A stretch of 64,000 bases of DNA from Maricaulis sp. (GTDB lineage Bacteria; Pseudomonadota; Alphaproteobacteria; Caulobacterales; Maricaulaceae). Position 1 is the first letter of the stretch, and each line of letters starts with the position of its first letter. The stretch is from NCBI RefSeq assembly GCF_015665295.1, contig NZ_JADFAJ010000001.1:62001-126000 (forward strand), in the 5' to 3' direction. The notes beneath the pieces were generated by a model. That model was not told the DNA's origin, searched no databases, and saw only the letters and a program-made list of their open reading frames with translations. Both the position numbers and the translations under genes were made by a program. Shown piece after piece: positions 4,155-27,432 of this stretch.

Positions 4155-6515
4155 CTAGAAGTCGGCCCCGATACGCACGCCCCAGAGAAGCGGCGCGCCG
4201 GCGATGAAGGTCGGGATCCCGAACGACCCGCCGGTATTCCCGGCATCGATCAGGTAGTCTTCATCGGTCAGGTTCGAGCCGTAAAGCTCGGCATGATAGC
4301 GCTCGTCTGCGCTTTCATAGCGCAGGCGGGCATTGAGCAGACCGTAGGACGGCTGCTGCAGTACACCGCCAAAGCGGTCATTATCGTTGTCGAAAAAGAT
4401 CTTCGACTGCCAGGACCAGGTCGGGACCAGGCTCACCGAGCCCCAGCCACCGCTTGCGACTTCCCAGTTCAGGCCCAGCGCGAGGGCATGTTCCGGCGCG
4501 TAGCGGAAACGATTGCCAGCCAGTTCGAGCGCATTGCCCTGGCTGTCCGTGTCGTCAAAGCTGGCGTGGTTGTAGGCATAGCTGACGAAAAGATTGGCGC
4601 TTTCGGCCAGATCGAAATCGCCCTGCAGTTCCAGGCCATACTGGGTCGCATTGCCGGCATTGTCGGTAATGAAACTGACCGTGTTGGGATCAAAGCGCGT
4701 GGTCTGGAAATTCTCGTATTCGGAATGGAAGACCGAGCCGGACACCGTGCCACGATCAAAGGTGAGGAAGGCACCGACTTCCAGCGAGTCGACAATCTCG
4801 GCCGGGGCTTCGGAGAAGAAGCTTGGCACCGAGGTGTCGACCGAGATCACGTCGGGACGACGACCGCGCGCGAAGCTGGCCCAGGTATTGAGGCGATCCG
4901 TCACGGCATAGGAGGCCGCGAAGCGCCAGGTGAAATCATCGAACTCGCCATCCTGGCTGACAAAATCGCCATTCGGCGTGTAGGGCACAATCAGCGTGTC
5001 GCCGAAAGTGACGAAGTTCGGGCCCGACAGGGAGCGCCCGTAGCCGCGTGAGGTCTTGTCTTCCGCCGTATAGCGCAGGCCCGCGGTCAGGGTGAGCCGT
5101 TCGGTCACCGCGTATGACGCATCTGCGAACACATCCCAGGATGTGGTCTCGGCACCATTGGCGGCCTCTTCCAGATAGAAGTCGCGCAGCGGCACGAGCT
5201 GGTTCTGGGTCAGCAGTGCAGCGACCGAGTAGGGGAAGGGATTGAACGGATTGTCGAGATCGACACCCGGGAAACCGCCAAGGGCGAGAAGCCCTTCAAG
5301 CTGTTCGACGGTGGCGCCAAAACCGGCAGCGAGCGTCGGCGCCAGGAAAGCCTGGGCGACCCGCTCGTCCAGACCGATCGGGATGCGCTGTTCGCCTTGC
5401 TCTGTGAACCACAGCGCGCCGACGGAACCGGTCAGCCGGTCGCCATTGTCGTAGGACAGGCGGAATTCCTGGCTGAACTGCTCGCCGACCGCATCTTCGC
5501 CGATGGTCAGGAAGGGCAACGCCGTCCCGTCCGGATCAAAGATTTCAACCGAGGTGAAATCACGCCAGCCGGTGATCGAGGACAGGGTCCAGGCATCATT
5601 GAGCGCGTAATCAGCCAGCAGGGTGACGCCGCGCACTTCGCGGTCGAGGCCGAGCGGGGCGCCGCCCTCAAAGCCACCGAACGTATTCAGTGCAGCCGCT
5701 GTGTGCGGGTCGGTATCACCACCGGGCGCCGGAAATGTGCCCGACTTGAAGGAGGTGCCCGGAGGGGTGTCCTGCTGGAAATTGGCAATCAGGTCGAAGG
5801 AGAAGCGCTCGGTCGGGGCACCGGAGAACACCATGCGCACGGCCTGGGTGTCGCGGCCCTGCAGGCCCTCGCCGCCCAGCGCATTGTCGATATAACCATC
5901 GCGTTCGCGGCTGACCGCCGCAAAGCGCAGGCCATAGTCTTCGGAGAGCGCGAAATTGACATGGCCACGGGCTTCAAGCTGGCCTTCATTGCCGGCGCCA
6001 ACTTCCACCGAGGCCGAGAATTCGTCCTCTGCCTTGTTCTGGATGATGTTGATTCCACCGATCAGCGCGCCGCGACCGAACAGGGTCGGCTGCGGGCCCT
6101 TGGCCACTTCCACGCGCTCGACGTCGAACAGCTCGACATAAGAGCCGCGCGAGCGGGTGATCGACACACCGTCCTGGAACACGGCGACACGGGTCTCCGA
6201 CGTCGCTTCACCGCTGTCGGTGGTGATGCCGCGGATCGAGTAGCCGGTATTGTTCGGGCTCTGCTCCTGAACGACGAGGCCCGGCGTGAAGGCGGCGAGG
6301 TCTTCAAAGTCGGCAATGTCGAGGGCTTCCAGACGCTCGGCGTCGAAAGCGGTGACATTGATCGGCACATCGGCCAGCGACTGCTCGCGGAACTGGGTGG
6401 TGACCCGGATGACATCCATGGTCTCGTCGTCACCGTCCTGGGCAAAGGCGGCAGGCGCGGCTGCGGTGAGCAGGCCGAGAGCGGCTGCGGTCAGAAGGCG
6501 GGACTTGAATGTCAT
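4155..6515 (-). CDS. TonB-dependent receptor, probably phosphorus-related
   Basis: A 786-residue outer-membrane receptor. The start at 6515 is chosen because it is preceded by GAGGAG and opens a clean signal peptide (MTFKSRLLTAAALG to AAFA). A TonB-box-like segment (MDVIRVTTQ) is followed by a plug domain (INVTAFDAERLEAL, NNTGYSIRGI, VERVEVAKGPQPTLFGRGALIGGINII) and a 22-strand-type barrel ending in a C-terminal aromatic residue (VRIGADF). The downstream PhoD phosphatase suggests a role in uptake of a phosphate ester or a product of it. The ligand itself is not identifiable. The gene is divergent from rluD. Confidence 0.9.
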   Translation of the reverse strand: MTFKSRLLTAAALGLLTAAAPAAFAQDGDDETMDVIRVTTQFREQSLADVPINVTAFDAERLEALDIADFEDLAAFTPGLVVQEQSPNNTGYSIRGITTDSGEATSETRVAVFQDGVSITRSRGSYVELFDVERVEVAKGPQPTLFGRGALIGGINIIQNKAEDEFSASVEVGAGNEGQLEARGHVNFALSEDYGLRFAAVSRERDGYIDNALGGEGLQGRDTQAVRMVFSGAPTERFSFDLIANFQQDTPPGTSFKSGTFPAPGGDTDPHTAAALNTFGGFEGGAPLGLDREVRGVTLLADYALNDAWTLSSITGWRDFTSVEIFDPDGTALPFLTIGEDAVGEQFSQEFRLSYDNGDRLTGSVGALWFTEQGEQRIPIGLDERVAQAFLAPTLAAGFGATVEQLEGLLALGGFPGVDLDNPFNPFPYSVAALLTQNQLVPLRDFYLEEAANGAETTSWDVFADASYAVTERLTLTAGLRYTAEDKTSRGYGRSLSGPNFVTFGDTLIVPYTPNGDFVSQDGEFDDFTWRFAASYAVTDRLNTWASFARGRRPDVISVDTSVPSFFSEAPAEIVDSLEVGAFLTFDRGTVSGSVFHSEYENFQTTRFDPNTVSFITDNAGNATQYGLELQGDFDLAESANLFVSYAYNHASFDDTDSQGNALELAGNRFRYAPEHALALGLNWEVASGGWGSVSLVPTWSWQSKIFFDNDNDRFGGVLQQPSYGLLNARLRYESADERYHAELYGSNLTDEDYLIDAGNTGGSFGIPTFIAGAPLLWGVRIGADF

Positions 6516-22998: not shown

Positions 22999-23015
22999 AT
23001 GCGAATTATTCGCAT
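22999..23015. promoter_or_regulatory. Fur-family-like operator, box A
   Basis: ATGCGAAT-T-ATTCGCAT is a perfect 8-1-8 inverted repeat. Its core TGCGAAT-T-ATTCGCA has the 7-1-7 layout and central AAT-N-ATT typical of Fur-family boxes. It is the first of three similar repeats upstream of the TDSD-repeat genes. Assignment to Fur rather than another family member (Zur, Mur, Irr) is inference. Confidence 0.55.
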
Positions 23016-23219: not shown

Positions 23220-23555
23220 ATGGCCAAAAAAGGCAAACTCAGCCGCCGCTCCTTCCTGACCCGCGTCGCGGGCGGGACAATCGCAACCGGCGCCATTGCC
23301 ACGGTTGCGGGCGCAGCCGTTGTCCAACGCTATGCGGATGCTGACCCGGTTGACGGCGTCGCTCGCACCGGGATCACCGACTCCGATCCGAACGATTACG
23401 CGAACCATGGCACCAGCCGCACGGGTCGCACGGACAGTGACAGCGGCGCCTGCGCTGACCAGGCCGGCTATGGCCGCGGCAATACCGGCTACACCGACTC
23501 CGACAGCTCGGGCTGCTCCGACCCGGGTGGTCGCGGTCGCGGTTCCAGCCTCTAG
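23220..23555 (+). CDS. Tat-exported TDSD-repeat protein 1 (short paralogue)
   Basis: A 111-residue protein of a family I do not recognise as characterised. The N-terminus MAKKGKLSRRSFLTRVAGG is a classic twin-arginine signal followed by a small-residue hydrophobic stretch, so export of a folded or cofactor-loaded protein is expected. From residue 53 it has three degenerate units of the TDSD...G.GRG repeat. The first is poorly conserved (TDSDPNDYANHG). Cys78 and Cys99 occupy repeat positions that hold Y/S in the paralogues. It is the first of three tandem paralogues and lies behind the Fur-like boxes. Alternatives are a calcium-binding repeat protein or a precursor for modification. Function is unknown. 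Confidence 0.75.
   Translation: MAKKGKLSRRSFLTRVAGGTIATGAIATVAGAAVVQRYADADPVDGVARTGITDSDPNDYANHGTSRTGRTDSDSGACADQAGYGRGNTGYTDSDSSGCSDPGGRGRGSSL
23376..23552 (+). repeat. Three degenerate TDSD repeat units in protein 1
   Basis: Units begin TDSDPNDYANHG, TDSDSGACADQAGYGRG and TDSDSSGCSDPGGRGRG. The unit length is about 18-21 residues. Only the TDSD start and the G.GRG end are well kept. Confidence 0.75.
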
Positions 23556-23561
23556 GATTTC

Positions 23562-23587
23562 ACGACGGCGCCCGCGGGCGCCGTCGT
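23562..23587. terminator. Perfect 26-bp palindrome between repeat genes 1 and 2
   Basis: Positions 23562-23574 and 23575-23587 are exact reverse complements (left arm ACGACGGCGCCCG). The palindrome is very GC-rich and lies seven bases after the stop of protein 1. No run of T follows, so it may be a weak terminator or an mRNA-stabilising hairpin that sets the ratio of protein 1 to proteins 2 and 3. Confidence 0.5.
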
Positions 23588-23656
23588 CATATCTCTATCG
23601 TGAGGGACTTCAGGCAATTCGTGGGGGATTGCCGGGCACGAGAATGAGGTAGTTAC

Positions 23657-24217
23657 ATGGCCAACAAGGGCAAGCTCAGCCGCCGCTCGTTTCTAACGCG
23701 CGTTGCCGGCACTGCCATCGCCACCGGTGCAGCGGGCGCTGTGACTGGCGGCGCAATCGCACAGAATTACACCGGACGGACCGATAGCGATTCAGGCAGC
23801 TATGCCGACCGCGCCGGTTATGGACGCACAGGCGCCACCGACAGTGATGGCGGCAGCAATTCTGACCGTGCCGGATACGGCCGCGGCAGCACGGGCAACA
23901 CTGACAGCGACACGGGCGCCTATGCCGACCCGGCCGGAAACGGTCGCGGGCGTTCAGGGGTTACGGATAGTGATTCCGGTTCCTACGCTGACCCGGCCGG
24001 AAACGGCCGCGGGCGCCGCAGCTCCGGTGTTACCGACAGCGATACCGGTTCCTATTCAGACCCTGTCGGCAATGGCCGCGGGCGTTCGGGAGTTACCGAC
24101 AGTGATACCGGCAGCTACGCCGATCCGGCTGGCAATGGCCGTGGACGCCGTTCCTGTACAGACAGCGATACCGGCAGCTATGCCGATCCTGTGGGCCGCG
24201 GCGATCGCTGCCGCTGA
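23657..24217 (+). CDS. Tat-exported TDSD-repeat protein 2
   Basis: A 186-residue paralogue. MANKGKLSRRSFLTRVAG is the Tat motif, and AIA-Q around residues 33-36 is a plausible signal peptidase site. From residue 42 to the end it consists of seven units of about 19-23 residues with the pattern TDSD[TS]GSYADPxGNGRGR plus a short linker (SGV, RRSSGV). The units are rich in Asp, Gly, Arg and Ser and nearly lack hydrophobics. Cys167 and Cys185 flank the last unit. GAGGT six bases before the ATG is the ribosome-binding site. The D-x-D-x-G pattern is reminiscent of calcium-binding loops. No enzymatic domain is present. Confidence 0.82.
   Translation: MANKGKLSRRSFLTRVAGTAIATGAAGAVTGGAIAQNYTGRTDSDSGSYADRAGYGRTGATDSDGGSNSDRAGYGRGSTGNTDSDTGAYADPAGNGRGRSGVTDSDSGSYADPAGNGRGRRSSGVTDSDTGSYSDPVGNGRGRSGVTDSDTGSYADPAGNGRGRRSCTDSDTGSYADPVGRGDRCR
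23780..24214 (+). repeat. Seven-unit TDSDTGSYADPAGNGRG array in protein 2
   Basis: Seven successive units start with TDSD. The first two are variant (TDSDSGSYADRAGYGR, TDSDGGSNSDRAGYGR) and the later five are close to TDSDTGSYADPAGNGRGR. The last ends in GDRCR. Synonymous differences between units suggest an old duplication kept by protein-level selection. Confidence 0.88.
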
Positions 24218-24271
24218 TTTGCGCCGGGCCGGGCGACCTGGTTGAAGCCGGCCGCACACATGGAGGCTTGA

Positions 24272-24826
24272 ATGGCCAAACGCGGAATACTCTCCCGCCG
24301 ATCTTTCCTGACGCGCGTCGCCGGTGCGGCGGTCGTGACAGGCGCTGCCGGAACCGTCGCTGGCTGCGCAACCACCGGCTACACAGACAGTGACACGGGT
24401 CGCTATGCCGATCCGGCGGGCGGCGGCCGCGGCGGCTATGGCAGCTCCGGCGTTACCGACAGCGATACCGGTCGCTATGCCGACCCGGTCGGCAATGGGC
24501 GCGGCGGCGGCGTCACCGACGCTGACAGCGGTCGCTATGCCGACCCGGTCGGCGGCGGCCGTGGTGGTGGCGTCACGGATGCCGACAGCGGTTCCTATGC
24601 CGACCCGGCCGGTCGCGGTCGCGGCAGCTCCGGCGTGACCGACAATGACAGTGGCAGCTATGCCGATCCGGTCGGACGTGGCCGCGGCAGCGGCTATCGC
24701 GGGGCAACCGACAGTGACAGCGGCCGCTATGCCGACCCGGTGGGTGGCGGACGCGGCGGACGCTCGTGCACCGACAGCGACACCGGCAATTATGCCGACC
24801 CGGTCGGCGGGGGCCGGCGCTGCTGA
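24272..24826 (+). CDS. Tat-exported TDSD-repeat lipoprotein 3
   Basis: A 184-residue paralogue. MAKRGILSRRSFLTRVAG is the Tat motif, and here the signal ends in a lipobox VAGC (Cys32), so this member should be lipid-anchored while protein 2 is not. From residue 38 seven units follow with the pattern TD[SAN]D[TS]GxYADP[AV]GxGRG. Glycine-rich linkers (RGGG, RGSGYRG) are longer than in protein 2. Cys166 and Cys184 flank the final unit at exactly the same 18-residue spacing as in protein 2. GGAGG stands eight bases before the start. It ends the tandem family and is followed by a strong terminator. Confidence 0.82.
   Translation: MAKRGILSRRSFLTRVAGAAVVTGAAGTVAGCATTGYTDSDTGRYADPAGGGRGGYGSSGVTDSDTGRYADPVGNGRGGGVTDADSGRYADPVGGGRGGGVTDADSGSYADPAGRGRGSSGVTDNDSGSYADPVGRGRGSGYRGATDSDSGRYADPVGGGRGGRSCTDSDTGNYADPVGGGRRC
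24383..24823 (+). repeat. Seven-unit TDSDTGRYADPVGGGRG array in protein 3
   Basis: Seven units with strictly kept YADP and G.GR motifs are present. Position 3 of the unit varies (S, A or N), and the residue before YADP is R, S or N. The unit periodicity is about 20-24 residues. The pattern is shared with protein 2, but the linkers differ, so the two arrays diverged independently. Confidence 0.88.
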
Positions 24827-24845
24827 ACCATTCTGTCTGACTGTG

Positions 24846-24874
24846 AAACCCCCGTGCCTTGCGCGGGGGTTTTT
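24846..24874 (+). terminator. Intrinsic terminator closing the repeat-protein cluster
   Basis: AAACCCCCG at 24846-24854 pairs with CGGGGGTTT at 24864-24872, followed by further T residues. It lies 20 bases after the stop of protein 3 and separates the repeat genes from the oxygenase gene, which therefore probably has its own promoter or depends on read-through. Confidence 0.88.
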
Positions 24875-24966
24875 CGTGCGCCCGCTGTCATCGGCAGCGG
24901 CGCACAGGCGACAAGGCCCGAGCGCCCCGCTAACCTTCTCATTCACTCTCGGGGGAGATATTCCAC

Positions 24967-26151
24967 ATGACTGCACCGCTTTGGCTGACCGATCCCTTCC
25001 GCGCGATGATCGACCCGATCGATCGCGACACATTCTTCCGCGATTACCATGAGGCCAAGCCGCTCATTGTTCACCGCGAAGACCCGGGCCGGTATTCCGG
25101 CCTGCTGTCCATGACGCGAATTGACGAAATCATCTCGAGCATTGACCTGCGGGAAGGCTCTCTGGACATGGCCAGGTCCGAGCCGCCCGTGAGCCGCGAG
25201 GACTACATGTTCGACACAGGCTATGTCGATCGTGGAGGGGTCGCAAACCAGTTCCGCCAGGGCGCAACGATCATTCTGCCACAATTGCACATGTCAGATG
25301 CCGTGCTCGGCGAATTCTGCCGTGCGGTCGAGTCGATCCTGAGCTGCCATGTCCAGACCAATATCTACCTAACGCCGCCGGACAATCAGGGCTTCAACAC
25401 CCACTATGACGATCATGACGTCTTCGTGCTGCAGATTGAGGGCGAGAAGCTATGGCGCTTCTACGAGACCCCGGTCGAGAATCCCTATCGCGGCGAAGGC
25501 TTCCGTCCGGATGCCCACAAGGCCGGCGAGCCGGTTGCGGAGTTTGTCCTGAAGGCGGGGGAATGCATCTATGTACCGCGTGGCCTGATGCACGATGCCC
25601 AGACCCACGGCGAAACGGCGTCCCTGCACGTGACACTCGGCCTGATCGTGAAAACCTGGGCCGACCTGATGCTGGAGGCTGTCTCCGAGGTCGCCCTGCG
25701 CACGCCCGCCATGCGTCGCTCGCTGCCCGTCGGATTCGCCGATCCGGACTTCGATCGCACTGACGCCGCCACCCAGTTCAGGGCCATGACCGAAACCCTG
25801 GCCAGTGAGATGAGCGTCGATGGCGCCATGGACTTCTTCGTCGACAGTTTCATCCGGTCACGCGTGCCCAATACGCGCGGCACGATCAGCGGCTATCTGG
25901 CACCGGCCAAACCCGGACAGGCGTTCCGTCTTCGCCCCTTCGTTCCGTGGCGCTTTGCTGGCGATGGCGATGAAAACGTCATCATCACCGCAGGCGGTGA
26001 AGTCCGGTTCGCCGCCGAAGCGGAAGCGGGCCTGCATGCCTTGCTGGACGGTGGCACCGTCACCACGGCAAGCTTTGAGGGCCAGGACGAAGCTGCCGCA
26101 ATCGAATCACTGTCGAAATTGCACGCTTTCGGGCTCATCGTTCCGGTCTGA
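24967..26151 (+). CDS. JmjC/cupin-4 family Fe(II)/2-oxoglutarate oxygenase
   Basis: A 394-residue protein resembling the ribosomal-oxygenase branch (YcfD, MINA53, NO66) of JmjC hydroxylases. The iron triad is visible: His146 and Asp148 in NTHYDDHDVFVLQ and His209 in VPRGLMHDA. Lys162 (EGEKLWRFY) is a candidate 2-oxoglutarate ligand. The first 100 residues lead into the double-stranded beta helix, and a helical dimerisation and winged-helix-like C-terminal region follows (about 230-394). GGGGGAGAT precedes the start. Family members hydroxylate protein side chains (Arg, His). The adjacent Asp/Arg-rich repeat proteins are possible substrates by location only. A housekeeping ribosomal target remains equally possible. 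Confidence 0.82.
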   Translation: MTAPLWLTDPFRAMIDPIDRDTFFRDYHEAKPLIVHREDPGRYSGLLSMTRIDEIISSIDLREGSLDMARSEPPVSREDYMFDTGYVDRGGVANQFRQGATIILPQLHMSDAVLGEFCRAVESILSCHVQTNIYLTPPDNQGFNTHYDDHDVFVLQIEGEKLWRFYETPVENPYRGEGFRPDAHKAGEPVAEFVLKAGECIYVPRGLMHDAQTHGETASLHVTLGLIVKTWADLMLEAVSEVALRTPAMRRSLPVGFADPDFDRTDAATQFRAMTETLASEMSVDGAMDFFVDSFIRSRVPNTRGTISGYLAPAKPGQAFRLRPFVPWRFAGDGDENVIITAGGEVRFAAEAEAGLHALLDGGTVTTASFEGQDEAAAIESLSKLHAFGLIVPV

Positions 26152-26240: not shown

Positions 26241-26263
26241 GCGGCCCGGCATGTCCGGGCCGC
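26241..26263 (+). terminator. GC-rich hairpin between the oxygenase and propeller genes
   Basis: GCGGCCCGG (26241-26249) and CCGGGCCGC (26255-26263) form a perfect 9-bp stem with a five-base loop, followed by a short TTG-TTT stretch. It may terminate the oxygenase transcript or attenuate the following gene, whose start is only 20 bases away. Confidence 0.45.
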
Positions 26264-26283
26264 CAGCTTGTTTGCAGGTAGGT

Positions 26284-27432
26284 ATGCGACTCCGCTCCGG
26301 CGCCATAGTCATTGGTCTGACCCTCATATTCGCCATTCTCTGGCTGATGTGGCCGTCACCGATCAACCCGGTCTATTGGGATGAACCGGAAGCCCCCGCC
26401 ATGACGGGTGTGCTGGCGCCCAATGACGCGCTGCGGGACGCACGCTTCATTCCGGTCGGCCTGGTTGGCGCGGCCCGCTGCGTCCTGTTGGGAGAAGACG
26501 GCACTGTCTATTATGGAAACGCATCAGGGGCAGTGCTCCGACACGATCCGGACGGCGGCGGCGCGCCCGACCAGGTACTCGCCGAGCTCGGTGAGCTTCC
26601 CGTCATCGGGCTTGAATGGATCAACCCGACAAAGCTGGGCGTGGCGACACCGGACGGCCTGTTTGCTATCAACCTGTCGGATGGATCGGCCCGCCGCATC
26701 AGCGCTGGCGTTCCGGGCTACCCGTTCGGACATGCCAAGGACCTGGCCGTCACCGCCGACGGTGATATTTATTTTACCGACTCATCCGTCCTGCTCGGTC
26801 GGCGCGGAAACCACCGTACCGATACGCTCGACATGTTGGAAAACCGCCCCCACGGCGCGCTTTATGTCTGGGACCCTCGCACGCACCAGACCCGGCTTGC
26901 TGCCGACCGGCTGTATTTCCCCAACGGGATTGCGGTCTCGTCTGACGGGCAATCCGTCTTCATTTCGGAATCCTTCCGCTATCGGATCCTGAGGCATTGG
27001 GTCAATGGCCCGAACGCTGGCGAGATCGAAGTCTTCGCTGACAACCTGCCCGGCTTGCCGGAGGGGCTGGCCACGGATGGCGCCGGCCACTTGTTTGTGG
27101 CGATCCCGGCTCAACGGACCGCTGTGCTGCGCACGATACGACGGCATCCATGGCTGGCGCAGATCGTCTCCCGCCTGCCCGTCTGGCTGCAGCCGAGCGG
27201 TGGTGCCGGCCGTCCCCTGATCGCCGTGCTGGACGAAAATAGCGGCACGATAGTCTCGACGCTTCACGACCCGGACGGCGGCCTGTGCCAGCTGTCTGAC
27301 ATCACGCTGTCATCCGAGCGCGACCTGTGGTTCGGATCGTCCGATTGCAGCTATATCGCTCGCCTGCCGCAAGCCACCGTCTATGCCGGACTCGAACGGC
27401 CAGGCTTGGCTACGACCGGAGACGGGCGCTGA
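26284..27432 (+). CDS. SMP-30/strictosidine synthase-like six-bladed propeller, membrane-anchored
   Basis: A 382-residue protein. The start at 26284 has AGGTAGGT just before it. An N-terminal hydrophobic segment (GAIVIGLTLIFAILWLMW) should anchor it in the inner membrane with the propeller in the periplasm. The blades carry family motifs: AKDLAVTADGDIYFTDSS, then RPHGALYVWDP, YFPNGIAVSSDGQSVFISES and GLPEGLATDGAGHLFVAI. These match strictosidine synthase-like proteins of the SMP-30/gluconolactonase superfamily, most of which are lactonases or have no known activity. It ends one base before the convergent tkt stop with no terminator in between. Confidence 0.8.
   Translation: MRLRSGAIVIGLTLIFAILWLMWPSPINPVYWDEPEAPAMTGVLAPNDALRDARFIPVGLVGAARCVLLGEDGTVYYGNASGAVLRHDPDGGGAPDQVLAELGELPVIGLEWINPTKLGVATPDGLFAINLSDGSARRISAGVPGYPFGHAKDLAVTADGDIYFTDSSVLLGRRGNHRTDTLDMLENRPHGALYVWDPRTHQTRLAADRLYFPNGIAVSSDGQSVFISESFRYRILRHWVNGPNAGEIEVFADNLPGLPEGLATDGAGHLFVAIPAQRTAVLRTIRRHPWLAQIVSRLPVWLQPSGGAGRPLIAVLDENSGTIVSTLHDPDGGLCQLSDITLSSERDLWFGSSDCSYIARLPQATVYAGLERPGLATTGDGR

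Follow-up and report, generated by a model that had tools for sequence, protein, structure and literature searches.

The stretch analysed here, 64,000 nucleotides of a Maricaulis sp. genome (contig NZ_JADFAJ010000001.1, positions 62,001 to 126,000; hereafter the window), raises the question of what is made by three tandem genes at positions 23220-24826, each encoding a small repeat protein with a predicted twin-arginine translocation (Tat) signal, and with which partner they work. We consider it probable that the locus encodes a minimal system of two components for modification and export, in which a 2-oxoglutarate (2OG)/Fe(II) oxygenase encoded next to them (24967-26151) hydroxylates the repeats and the Tat pathway exports them; the exported array may bind metal. 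A first-pass annotation of the same DNA had drawn the feature around the three tandem genes, and that part stands, but it missed the adjacent oxygenase gene, which probably encodes the modifying enzyme.

Tandem repeat genes and the adjacent oxygenase gene

All three repeat genes lie on the forward strand and carry copies of a TDSDTGxYADPxGxGRG-like unit. Repeat protein 1 (23220-23555) has 111 aa and three TDxD units, repeat protein 2 (23657-24217) has 186 aa and seven units with the C-terminal one bracketed by Cys, and repeat protein 3 (24272-24826) has 184 aa and likewise seven units, the last of which is Cys-bracketed. Common to all three is the predicted Tat signal SRRSFLTRVAG (S-R-R-x-F-L plus a hydrophobic stretch), which Tat-type NCBIfam models match weakly, below cutoff. 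The shared leader and the copy numbers given in the first-pass annotation are thereby confirmed from the open reading frames (ORFs), and its statement that one member is a lipoprotein agrees with a lipobox-like TVAGC in the signal part of repeat protein 3. Beyond the signal part, each protein contains two Cys (leaving aside the lipobox Cys of protein 3); His is absent from mature proteins 2 and 3 and occurs once in protein 1. Repeat protein 3 is 95% identical to its counterpart in Maricaulis maris DSM 4734 (locus L037), and a fourth repeat gene is present in the window's own genome.

The three repeat ORFs are real genes under purifying selection, with dN/dS (the ratio of nonsynonymous to synonymous substitution rates) of ~0.03 for gene 1 against L037, ~0.07 for gene 2 against L035, and ~0.08 and ~0.05 for gene 3 against L035 and L036, respectively. 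Between the units of gene 3, 40% of third codon positions differ as opposed to 14% of first and second positions, and the corresponding values for gene 2 are 51% and 16%; fresh slippage is ruled out for the units because third codon positions have diverged far more. No Pfam family matches the three proteins at E<=1, the calcium-repeat profiles RTX, EF-hand, dockerin and TSP3 included; NCBIfam matches are all below cutoff, and repeat protein 3 has no sequence relative in the PDB (best E 0.27). The earlier view that the repeat belongs to no characterised family thus survives the profile comparison that could have overturned it. An AlphaFold2 prediction for repeat protein 3 gave no usable model (mean pLDDT, predicted local distance difference test, of 36), a low score that does not prove disorder. 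Such a low-confidence model might suggest low-complexity sequence without function that is kept by slippage, an explanation to which we give next to no credence in view of the strong purifying selection, the diverged codons between units, the three Asp at fixed spacing and the presence of the repeats in many families.

The adjacent gene 4 (24967-26151, forward strand) encodes a JmjC_2 (PF08007) 2OG/Fe(II) oxygenase of 394 aa (Pfam E 9.8e-29). Its predicted Fe(II) ligands are H146-x-D148 (25402-25410, forward) and, as the third, H209 (25591-25593, forward), all on the basis of invariance; K161 (25447-25449, forward) is the predicted ligand of the 2OG C-5 carboxylate, from invariance and from the spacing in YcfD. 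These four residues are invariant in 35 of 35 alphaproteobacterial rows, among them L077, which has no known repeats, and remain so when a Streptomyces clavuligerus row is added (36/36). Their spacing equals that of H133, D135, R148 and H196 in R. marinus YcfD (PMC5862935). By sequence, the closest proteins of solved structure are NO66 and MINA53, and a Foldseek search with the AlphaFold2 model (pLDDT 93.1) returned NO66 first (E 1.9e-29, template-modelling score 0.75, 445 alignment columns), then MINA53 (9e-27) and YcfD (5e-18). The enzyme is therefore predicted to have the fold of the ribosomal oxygenases (ROX; NO66/MINA53/YcfD), that is, a JmjC, dimerisation and winged-helix architecture. 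In the model the C-terminal winged helix (25948-26148, forward, delimited by DSSP) runs strand-strand-strand-helix-(short helix)-helix, and a 2025 study defines by an order of that kind the recognition elements (RREs) of ribosomally synthesised and post-translationally modified peptides (RiPPs) (PMC12710340). According to the same source, some eukaryotic PF08007 proteins bear RRE-like folds, and their closest bacterial homologues stand in RiPP-like contexts (PMC12710340). The RRE-like winged helix of the oxygenase is thus a candidate precursor-binding part, and perhaps binds the repeat proteins.

Pairing of repeat and oxygenase genes across genomes

The two gene families were counted by genome in a class sample of 385 Alphaproteobacteria, a relatives set of 61 genomes and a phylum sample of 398. 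The samples overlap, many loci come from near relatives, and because the searches scored a limited number of candidates in each genome, absences hold at that sensitivity. In the class sample both families occurred in 11 genomes, the oxygenase alone in one, the repeat alone in none and neither in 373; the relatives set gave 26, one, none and 34 in the same order. The Fisher p values of 2e-20 and 2e-16, respectively, are overstated, since the genomes are related and not independent. Both lone oxygenases lie near contig ends: in the class sample (G260, locus L077) the contig ends just after the gene, and in the relatives set (G020) the match begins with base 6 of the contig. Eight phylum-sample genomes had an oxygenase at E<=1e-40, all from the window's own class (four of them also in the class sample), and all eight had repeat genes, six by search and two (G718 and G722) by reading ORFs. 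A repeat match in G244 was dropped, being another frame of a purL-like gene.

Pairing by genome is matched by adjacency. The oxygenase lay within 1.5 kb of the best repeat match in all 26 repeat genomes of the relatives set and within the fetched flanks of 25 of the 32 repeat loci gathered with repeat protein 3 as query. The genomes of the remaining seven loci, at least three of which recur across sets (G791 = G007, G793 = G009, G795 = G207), encode the oxygenase elsewhere (E<=3.4e-72), each time with a repeat ORF within 1.5 kb of it (incomplete in L166). The Str_synth/SGL gene that follows in the window (26251-27432) was rejected as part of the system, as it is present in 11 of the 32 repeat loci compared with 25 for the oxygenase. 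Oxygenase matches in the class sample fall into two sets, 13 loci at E<=3.5e-55 and 28 at E 4.8e-38 to 9e-21. Twelve of the 13 high-scoring loci adjoin a repeat gene (in L076/L132 a degenerate one, recognised by reading), the exception being the truncated contig L077/G260, while none of 18 low-scoring JmjC_2 homologues (18 fetched of the 28) has repeats within 1.5 kb. A tree of 61 rows places the 33 repeat-linked oxygenases in a single group, whose support of 89/92 falls short of the program's 95/80 mark on the first figure; the 18 unlinked homologues are set off by a branch with support 100/97.

Among 16 divergent loci, the oxygenase (16 loci) and the repeat family (15 by BLAST and L132 by reading) were the only families common to all; other clusters found in more than four loci are, by their coordinates, antisense frames of the repeat and oxygenase genes, and ruv genes are common to four loci at most (the window, L041, L059 and L065). 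Gene order and strand vary between loci (L064 and L125 versus the window, for example), and because they differ the pairing is more than ancestral synteny. The repeat and oxygenase families belong together, and the evolutionary unit extends past 24826 to include the oxygenase gene at 24967-26151. The spread and neighbours of the repeat, which the first-pass annotation had proposed to map, thus amount to 11 of 385 class genomes and 26 of 61 relatives with the oxygenase as constant neighbour, and this constant partner in the sampled genomes lends support to its suggestion that the repeats are a precursor for side-chain modification.

These results also bear on a reading in which the repeats are unmodified calcium loops of the RTX or thrombospondin-3-like kind and the JmjC protein acts on a ribosomal protein, the two being linked by shared regulation only. 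The D-x-D-x-G...D pattern does resemble Ca2+ loops, and the predicted ROX fold would suit a ribosomal substrate. Set against this are the co-occurrence and adjacency in varied gene orders with no other constant neighbour, the lack of repeats at all 18 fetched lower-scoring class homologues and the Pfam comparison, which returned no calcium-repeat match; we regard this account as very unlikely.

Three further loci were recorded. In genome G006 (contig C62, 10036-11712) a second oxygenase (38% identity) lies by a second repeat locus, whose repeat match is crossed by one stop; this second Maricaulis locus suggests that whole modules may be duplicated or acquired. The repeat locus L063, labelled as an Anaerolineae metagenome-assembled genome (MAG), closely resembles that of the alphaproteobacterial MAG L062 and is probably a misbinned contig, not a member of the Chloroflexota. 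In L136 (genome G207, 5358-6041, reverse strand) a repeat protein ends in a PG_binding_1 domain (E 1.1e-18), a fusion that ties the repeats to the cell wall.

Candidate target residues in the repeat unit

In the repeat set of 107 sequences, which included one unrelated protein (L153_3287) and the tail of a split gene (L045), 664 units were recognised, and the gap between the second and third Asp was five residues in 540 (long units) and two in 115 (short units). The pattern used for this first count fixes D, D/N and D, so a GxGR anchor was used for another count of Asp. After a filter had removed two rows low in Gly and Asp, one of them (L153_2584) a true repeat ORF whose start extends too far, the three Asp were all present at fixed spacing for 590 of 636 GxGR anchors in 105 sequences (497 of them in long units, 93 in short ones); over all 107 sequences the count was 591 of 638. 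Of the 46 anchors without three spaced Asp, 36 are linker anchors behind a complete unit, and the other ten have a different loop length, one Asn for the second Asp, or are non-units.

Two candidate substrates narrow the choice of residue. The protein of L132 has a Tat signal followed by ...SDYDPNDPIGGGSDTDPVDPIGEGTDYD, a degenerate form of the repeat, recognised by reading, with an Arg-free core. The second comes from Streptomyces clavuligerus, where an oxygenase 41% identical over 63% of the query is directly preceded by an ORF of 48 residues that contains DNDPSDP and DPDPFDP but neither Arg nor a Tat signal. By eye, D-x-D-P-x-D-P is kept in both. His was rejected as the target in proteins 2 and 3, as their mature parts lack it, and Asp is favoured because it is common to all candidate substrates. 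As judged from the sequences, the case that the oxygenase acts on the repeats is strong, and that for Asp as the target residue moderate.

2OG oxygenases are versatile, and the enzyme might act on the repeats by oxidative cyclisation, cross-linking or desaturation, as other oxidative RiPP enzymes do. JmjC/cupin enzymes work in RiPP pathways (PMC12257519), and Asp, Thr, Ser and Tyr abound in the repeats; on the other side, JmjC enzymes of the ROX fold are described as hydroxylases (PMC4295552, PMC6006756), and Tyr is present in only 61% of long units. Such chemistry is improbable in our view, and hydroxylation is preferred.

A possible enzyme-binding site was noted at the N-terminus of some candidate substrates. 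The motif [TSRKP]Lx[DP]x[DEQ]I stands ahead of the Tat motif in 17 of the 105 repeat sequences when these are scanned by pattern; reading shows it at each of the ten deeper-branching tree loci outside the 23-row group that includes Maricaulis, and the S. clavuligerus peptide carries a TL(S/T)DxDI-like motif at its N-terminus; it is absent from the window's repeat proteins and from the other loci of the 23-row group. A control genome (G624) gave no match in 1632 ORFs, with a slightly different pattern and only six loosely Tat-like ORFs in the sample. The TL(S/T)DxDI-like leader motif could be the site at which the enzyme binds.

Mobile elements yielded more distant material. No plasmid match to the repeat proteins was obtained at E<=1e-4 and no phage match to the oxygenase at E<=1e-10, and plasmid homologues of the oxygenase are distant (<=41% identity). 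Matches to the 48-residue ORF in the plasmid collection were found in 16 S. clavuligerus records only, through its first 25 residues. Among the eight of 35 plasmid records with oxygenase homologues that were inspected, those other than S. clavuligerus showed by eye no D-x-D repeats in the translated small neighbouring ORFs. A Rhizobium etli plasmid (pRetIE4803b, L144, 2221-7523) combines a related JmjC_2 gene with a 77-aa ORF, a radical SAM/SPASM gene and a GNAT gene, and looks like an uncharacterised RiPP cluster. On two Streptomyces plasmids (L148, 2810-4149, and L149, 2562-3903), ORFs of 45 and 49 aa ending in SDGND precede JmjC_2 genes, with an aldo/keto reductase next downstream; these short ORFs are likely another small-precursor family for the JmjC_2 class.

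The proposed pathway and its place among known systems

In the pathway that we propose, the repeat proteins would be bound by the oxygenase while still in the cytoplasm, perhaps by way of the RRE-like winged helix at its C-terminus. With Fe(II), O2 and 2OG the enzyme would then hydroxylate each unit of ~20 residues, most likely at one or more of the three Asp that are nearly invariant in D-x-D-x(2 or 5)-D. Modification is placed in the cytoplasm because 2OG and Fe(II) are available there. The modified, largely unstructured array would exit by Tat and remain in the cell envelope, the product of gene 3 as a lipoprotein, and there would most likely act as metal-binding loops (Ca2+ or Fe3+). The first-pass annotation took use of the Tat route to imply folding or metal/cofactor loading before export; prior folding was not supported, and prior modification explains Tat better because repeat protein 3 has no predicted fold (pLDDT 36).

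Several observations weigh against this pathway or parts of it. Hydroxylation by characterised ROX enzymes falls on Arg or His and not on Asp (PMC4295552, PMC6006756). At the position after GxG, which the unit pattern left free, Arg is found in 95% of the 540 long and 86% of the 115 short units, which makes it almost as constant as Asp in the Tat-type repeats, and the choice of Asp rests on two Arg-free peptides read by eye. Within a genome, repeat genes also occur away from the oxygenase (seven of 32 loci, and on contig C8 here). Between gene 3 and the oxygenase gene, a terminator-like hairpin with a GC-rich 9-bp core and a 3-nt loop (24849-24869, forward strand, T5 to 24874) means that co-transcription is not assured; the fold of 24843-24878 has -23.8 kcal/mol and a z of -5.6, and the hairpin is not among the sites of a consensus terminator scan. 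It may set the substrate level above that of the enzyme, or a separate promoter may drive gene 4. Finally, the metal role is a weak conclusion drawn from hints, namely the lipoprotein signals, the PG_binding_1 fusion of L136, loops rich in Asp, and a palindrome of Fur-like form that the closest relatives have not kept.

This palindrome, TGCGAATTATTCGCA, is a perfect 7-1-7 repeat at 23000-23014, 205 bp before gene 1, which we liken to a Fur/Mur box and treat as suggestive only. The pattern TGCNAATNATTNGCA has three exact and four one-mismatch sites in the window's own genome and none in a control. The second exact site (G000, contig C4, 81550-81564) lies upstream of a TonB receptor/DUF6607 gene pair and the third adjoins a gene that is amylase-like by eye, while no iron gene was seen by eye at the four one-mismatch sites; an iron-type neighbour (the TonB receptor) is thus found at one of the six other near matches. 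The exact palindrome is absent in the closest relatives (L035-L037). Exact 7-1-7 palindromes of different sequence lie upstream at L038, L040 and L041, and near-palindromes at some further loci. Iron regulation through this site was kept as a hint only, since the closest relatives lack it.

The high frequency of Arg invites a different reading of the same pairing, in which the target is the Arg of GxGRG, beta-hydroxylated as by YcfD on uL16, and the hydroxy-Arg/Gly product binds nucleic acid, polysaccharide or lipid headgroups. YcfD, which has the same fold, is an arginyl hydroxylase (PMC4295552). The L132 and S. clavuligerus candidates, though, have no Arg in their core, the best sequence and fold matches of the oxygenase are NO66 and MINA53, not YcfD, and the predicted 2OG-binding residue is Lys here as opposed to Arg in R. 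marinus YcfD. Arg as the sole target was accordingly ranked second after Asp, owing to the two Arg-free peptides, and we hold it to be unlikely, if the least so of the alternatives weighed here.

A bolder form of the Asp-based pathway, offered tentatively, is that these ribosomally made, Tat-exported poly-(hydroxy-Asp) proteins form a class not described before, in which an RRE-bearing ROX enzyme would hydroxylate Asp in every repeat and the array would be a multivalent envelope ligand for metal, possibly iron. Hydroxy-Asp siderophores would be the counterpart of such a ribosomal ligand. Tat would have been chosen over Sec so that modification finishes first, and the shorter relatives with a leader in actinomycetes would share this origin and be RiPPs proper.

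The system shares one trait each with the ROX enzymes, the PbsQ/BpmG RiPPs and the bufferins, and is none of them. With NO66/RIOX1, MINA53/RIOX2 and YcfD/RoxA it has in common the predicted fold, HxD...H, a basic 2OG residue and the C-terminal winged helix, but unlike the ribosomal oxygenases the window's enzyme is genetically tied to exported repeat proteins, not to ribosomal ones; the repeat-linked enzymes group apart from 18 unlinked class homologues, and mature repeat proteins 2 and 3 offer no His. PbsQ and BpmG, JmjC/cupin hydroxylases encoded beside the ribosomal precursor of biphenomycin-type RiPPs, with ornithine hydroxylation shown, are likewise JmjC-type enzymes next to a ribosomal precursor; as described, they come in at a late stage of clusters with several enzymes and modify a single residue of a short peptide (PMC12257519), whereas the present system pairs a single enzyme with many repeats and a Tat signal, and no further enzyme is common across loci. 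Bufferins and other RiPPs modified by MNIO enzymes have a Sec signal in place of the usual leader, an adjacent iron enzyme and, possibly, long precursors (PMC12452194); they differ in enzyme family, in Sec, and in Cys motifs and copper chelation, against Tat and Asp/Gly/Arg repeats here.

A further likeness, to AspH and its epidermal growth factor (EGF)-like substrates, lies in a 2OG oxygenase that hydroxylates repeated extracellular units. To our knowledge, AspH is not a ROX-fold JmjC enzyme. The EGF-like fold has three disulphides; the window's repeat proteins have two Cys after the signal part and no Pfam match. AspH is described as an endoplasmic-reticulum (ER) membrane enzyme that works in the ER lumen, where it hydroxylates Asp/Asn of EGF-like domains at C-3 (PMC6817910, PMC9293771). 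As in a RiPP locus, the candidate precursor gene here adjoins the gene for its putative modifying enzyme. Part of the idea is already in print, in RRE-like folds on PF08007 and RiPP-like contexts (PMC12710340). The repeat-oxygenase pairing was not found described among the titles and abstract starts listed from an open-licence literature collection, nor did any paper of that collection combine 'twin-arginine' and 'JmjC'. The principle of a modified precursor is known; its combination with Tat export, tandem repeats as substrate and a single ROX-fold enzyme seems to be undescribed.

If the proposed pathway is correct, bacterial ROX-type oxygenases would gain a non-ribosomal class of substrate, encoded next door, and ribosomally made products with modifications, in which Sec signals themselves are already described as rare (PMC12452194), would come to include a Tat-exported kind. 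The use of Tat by a repeat protein that seems to lack structure would then also make sense.

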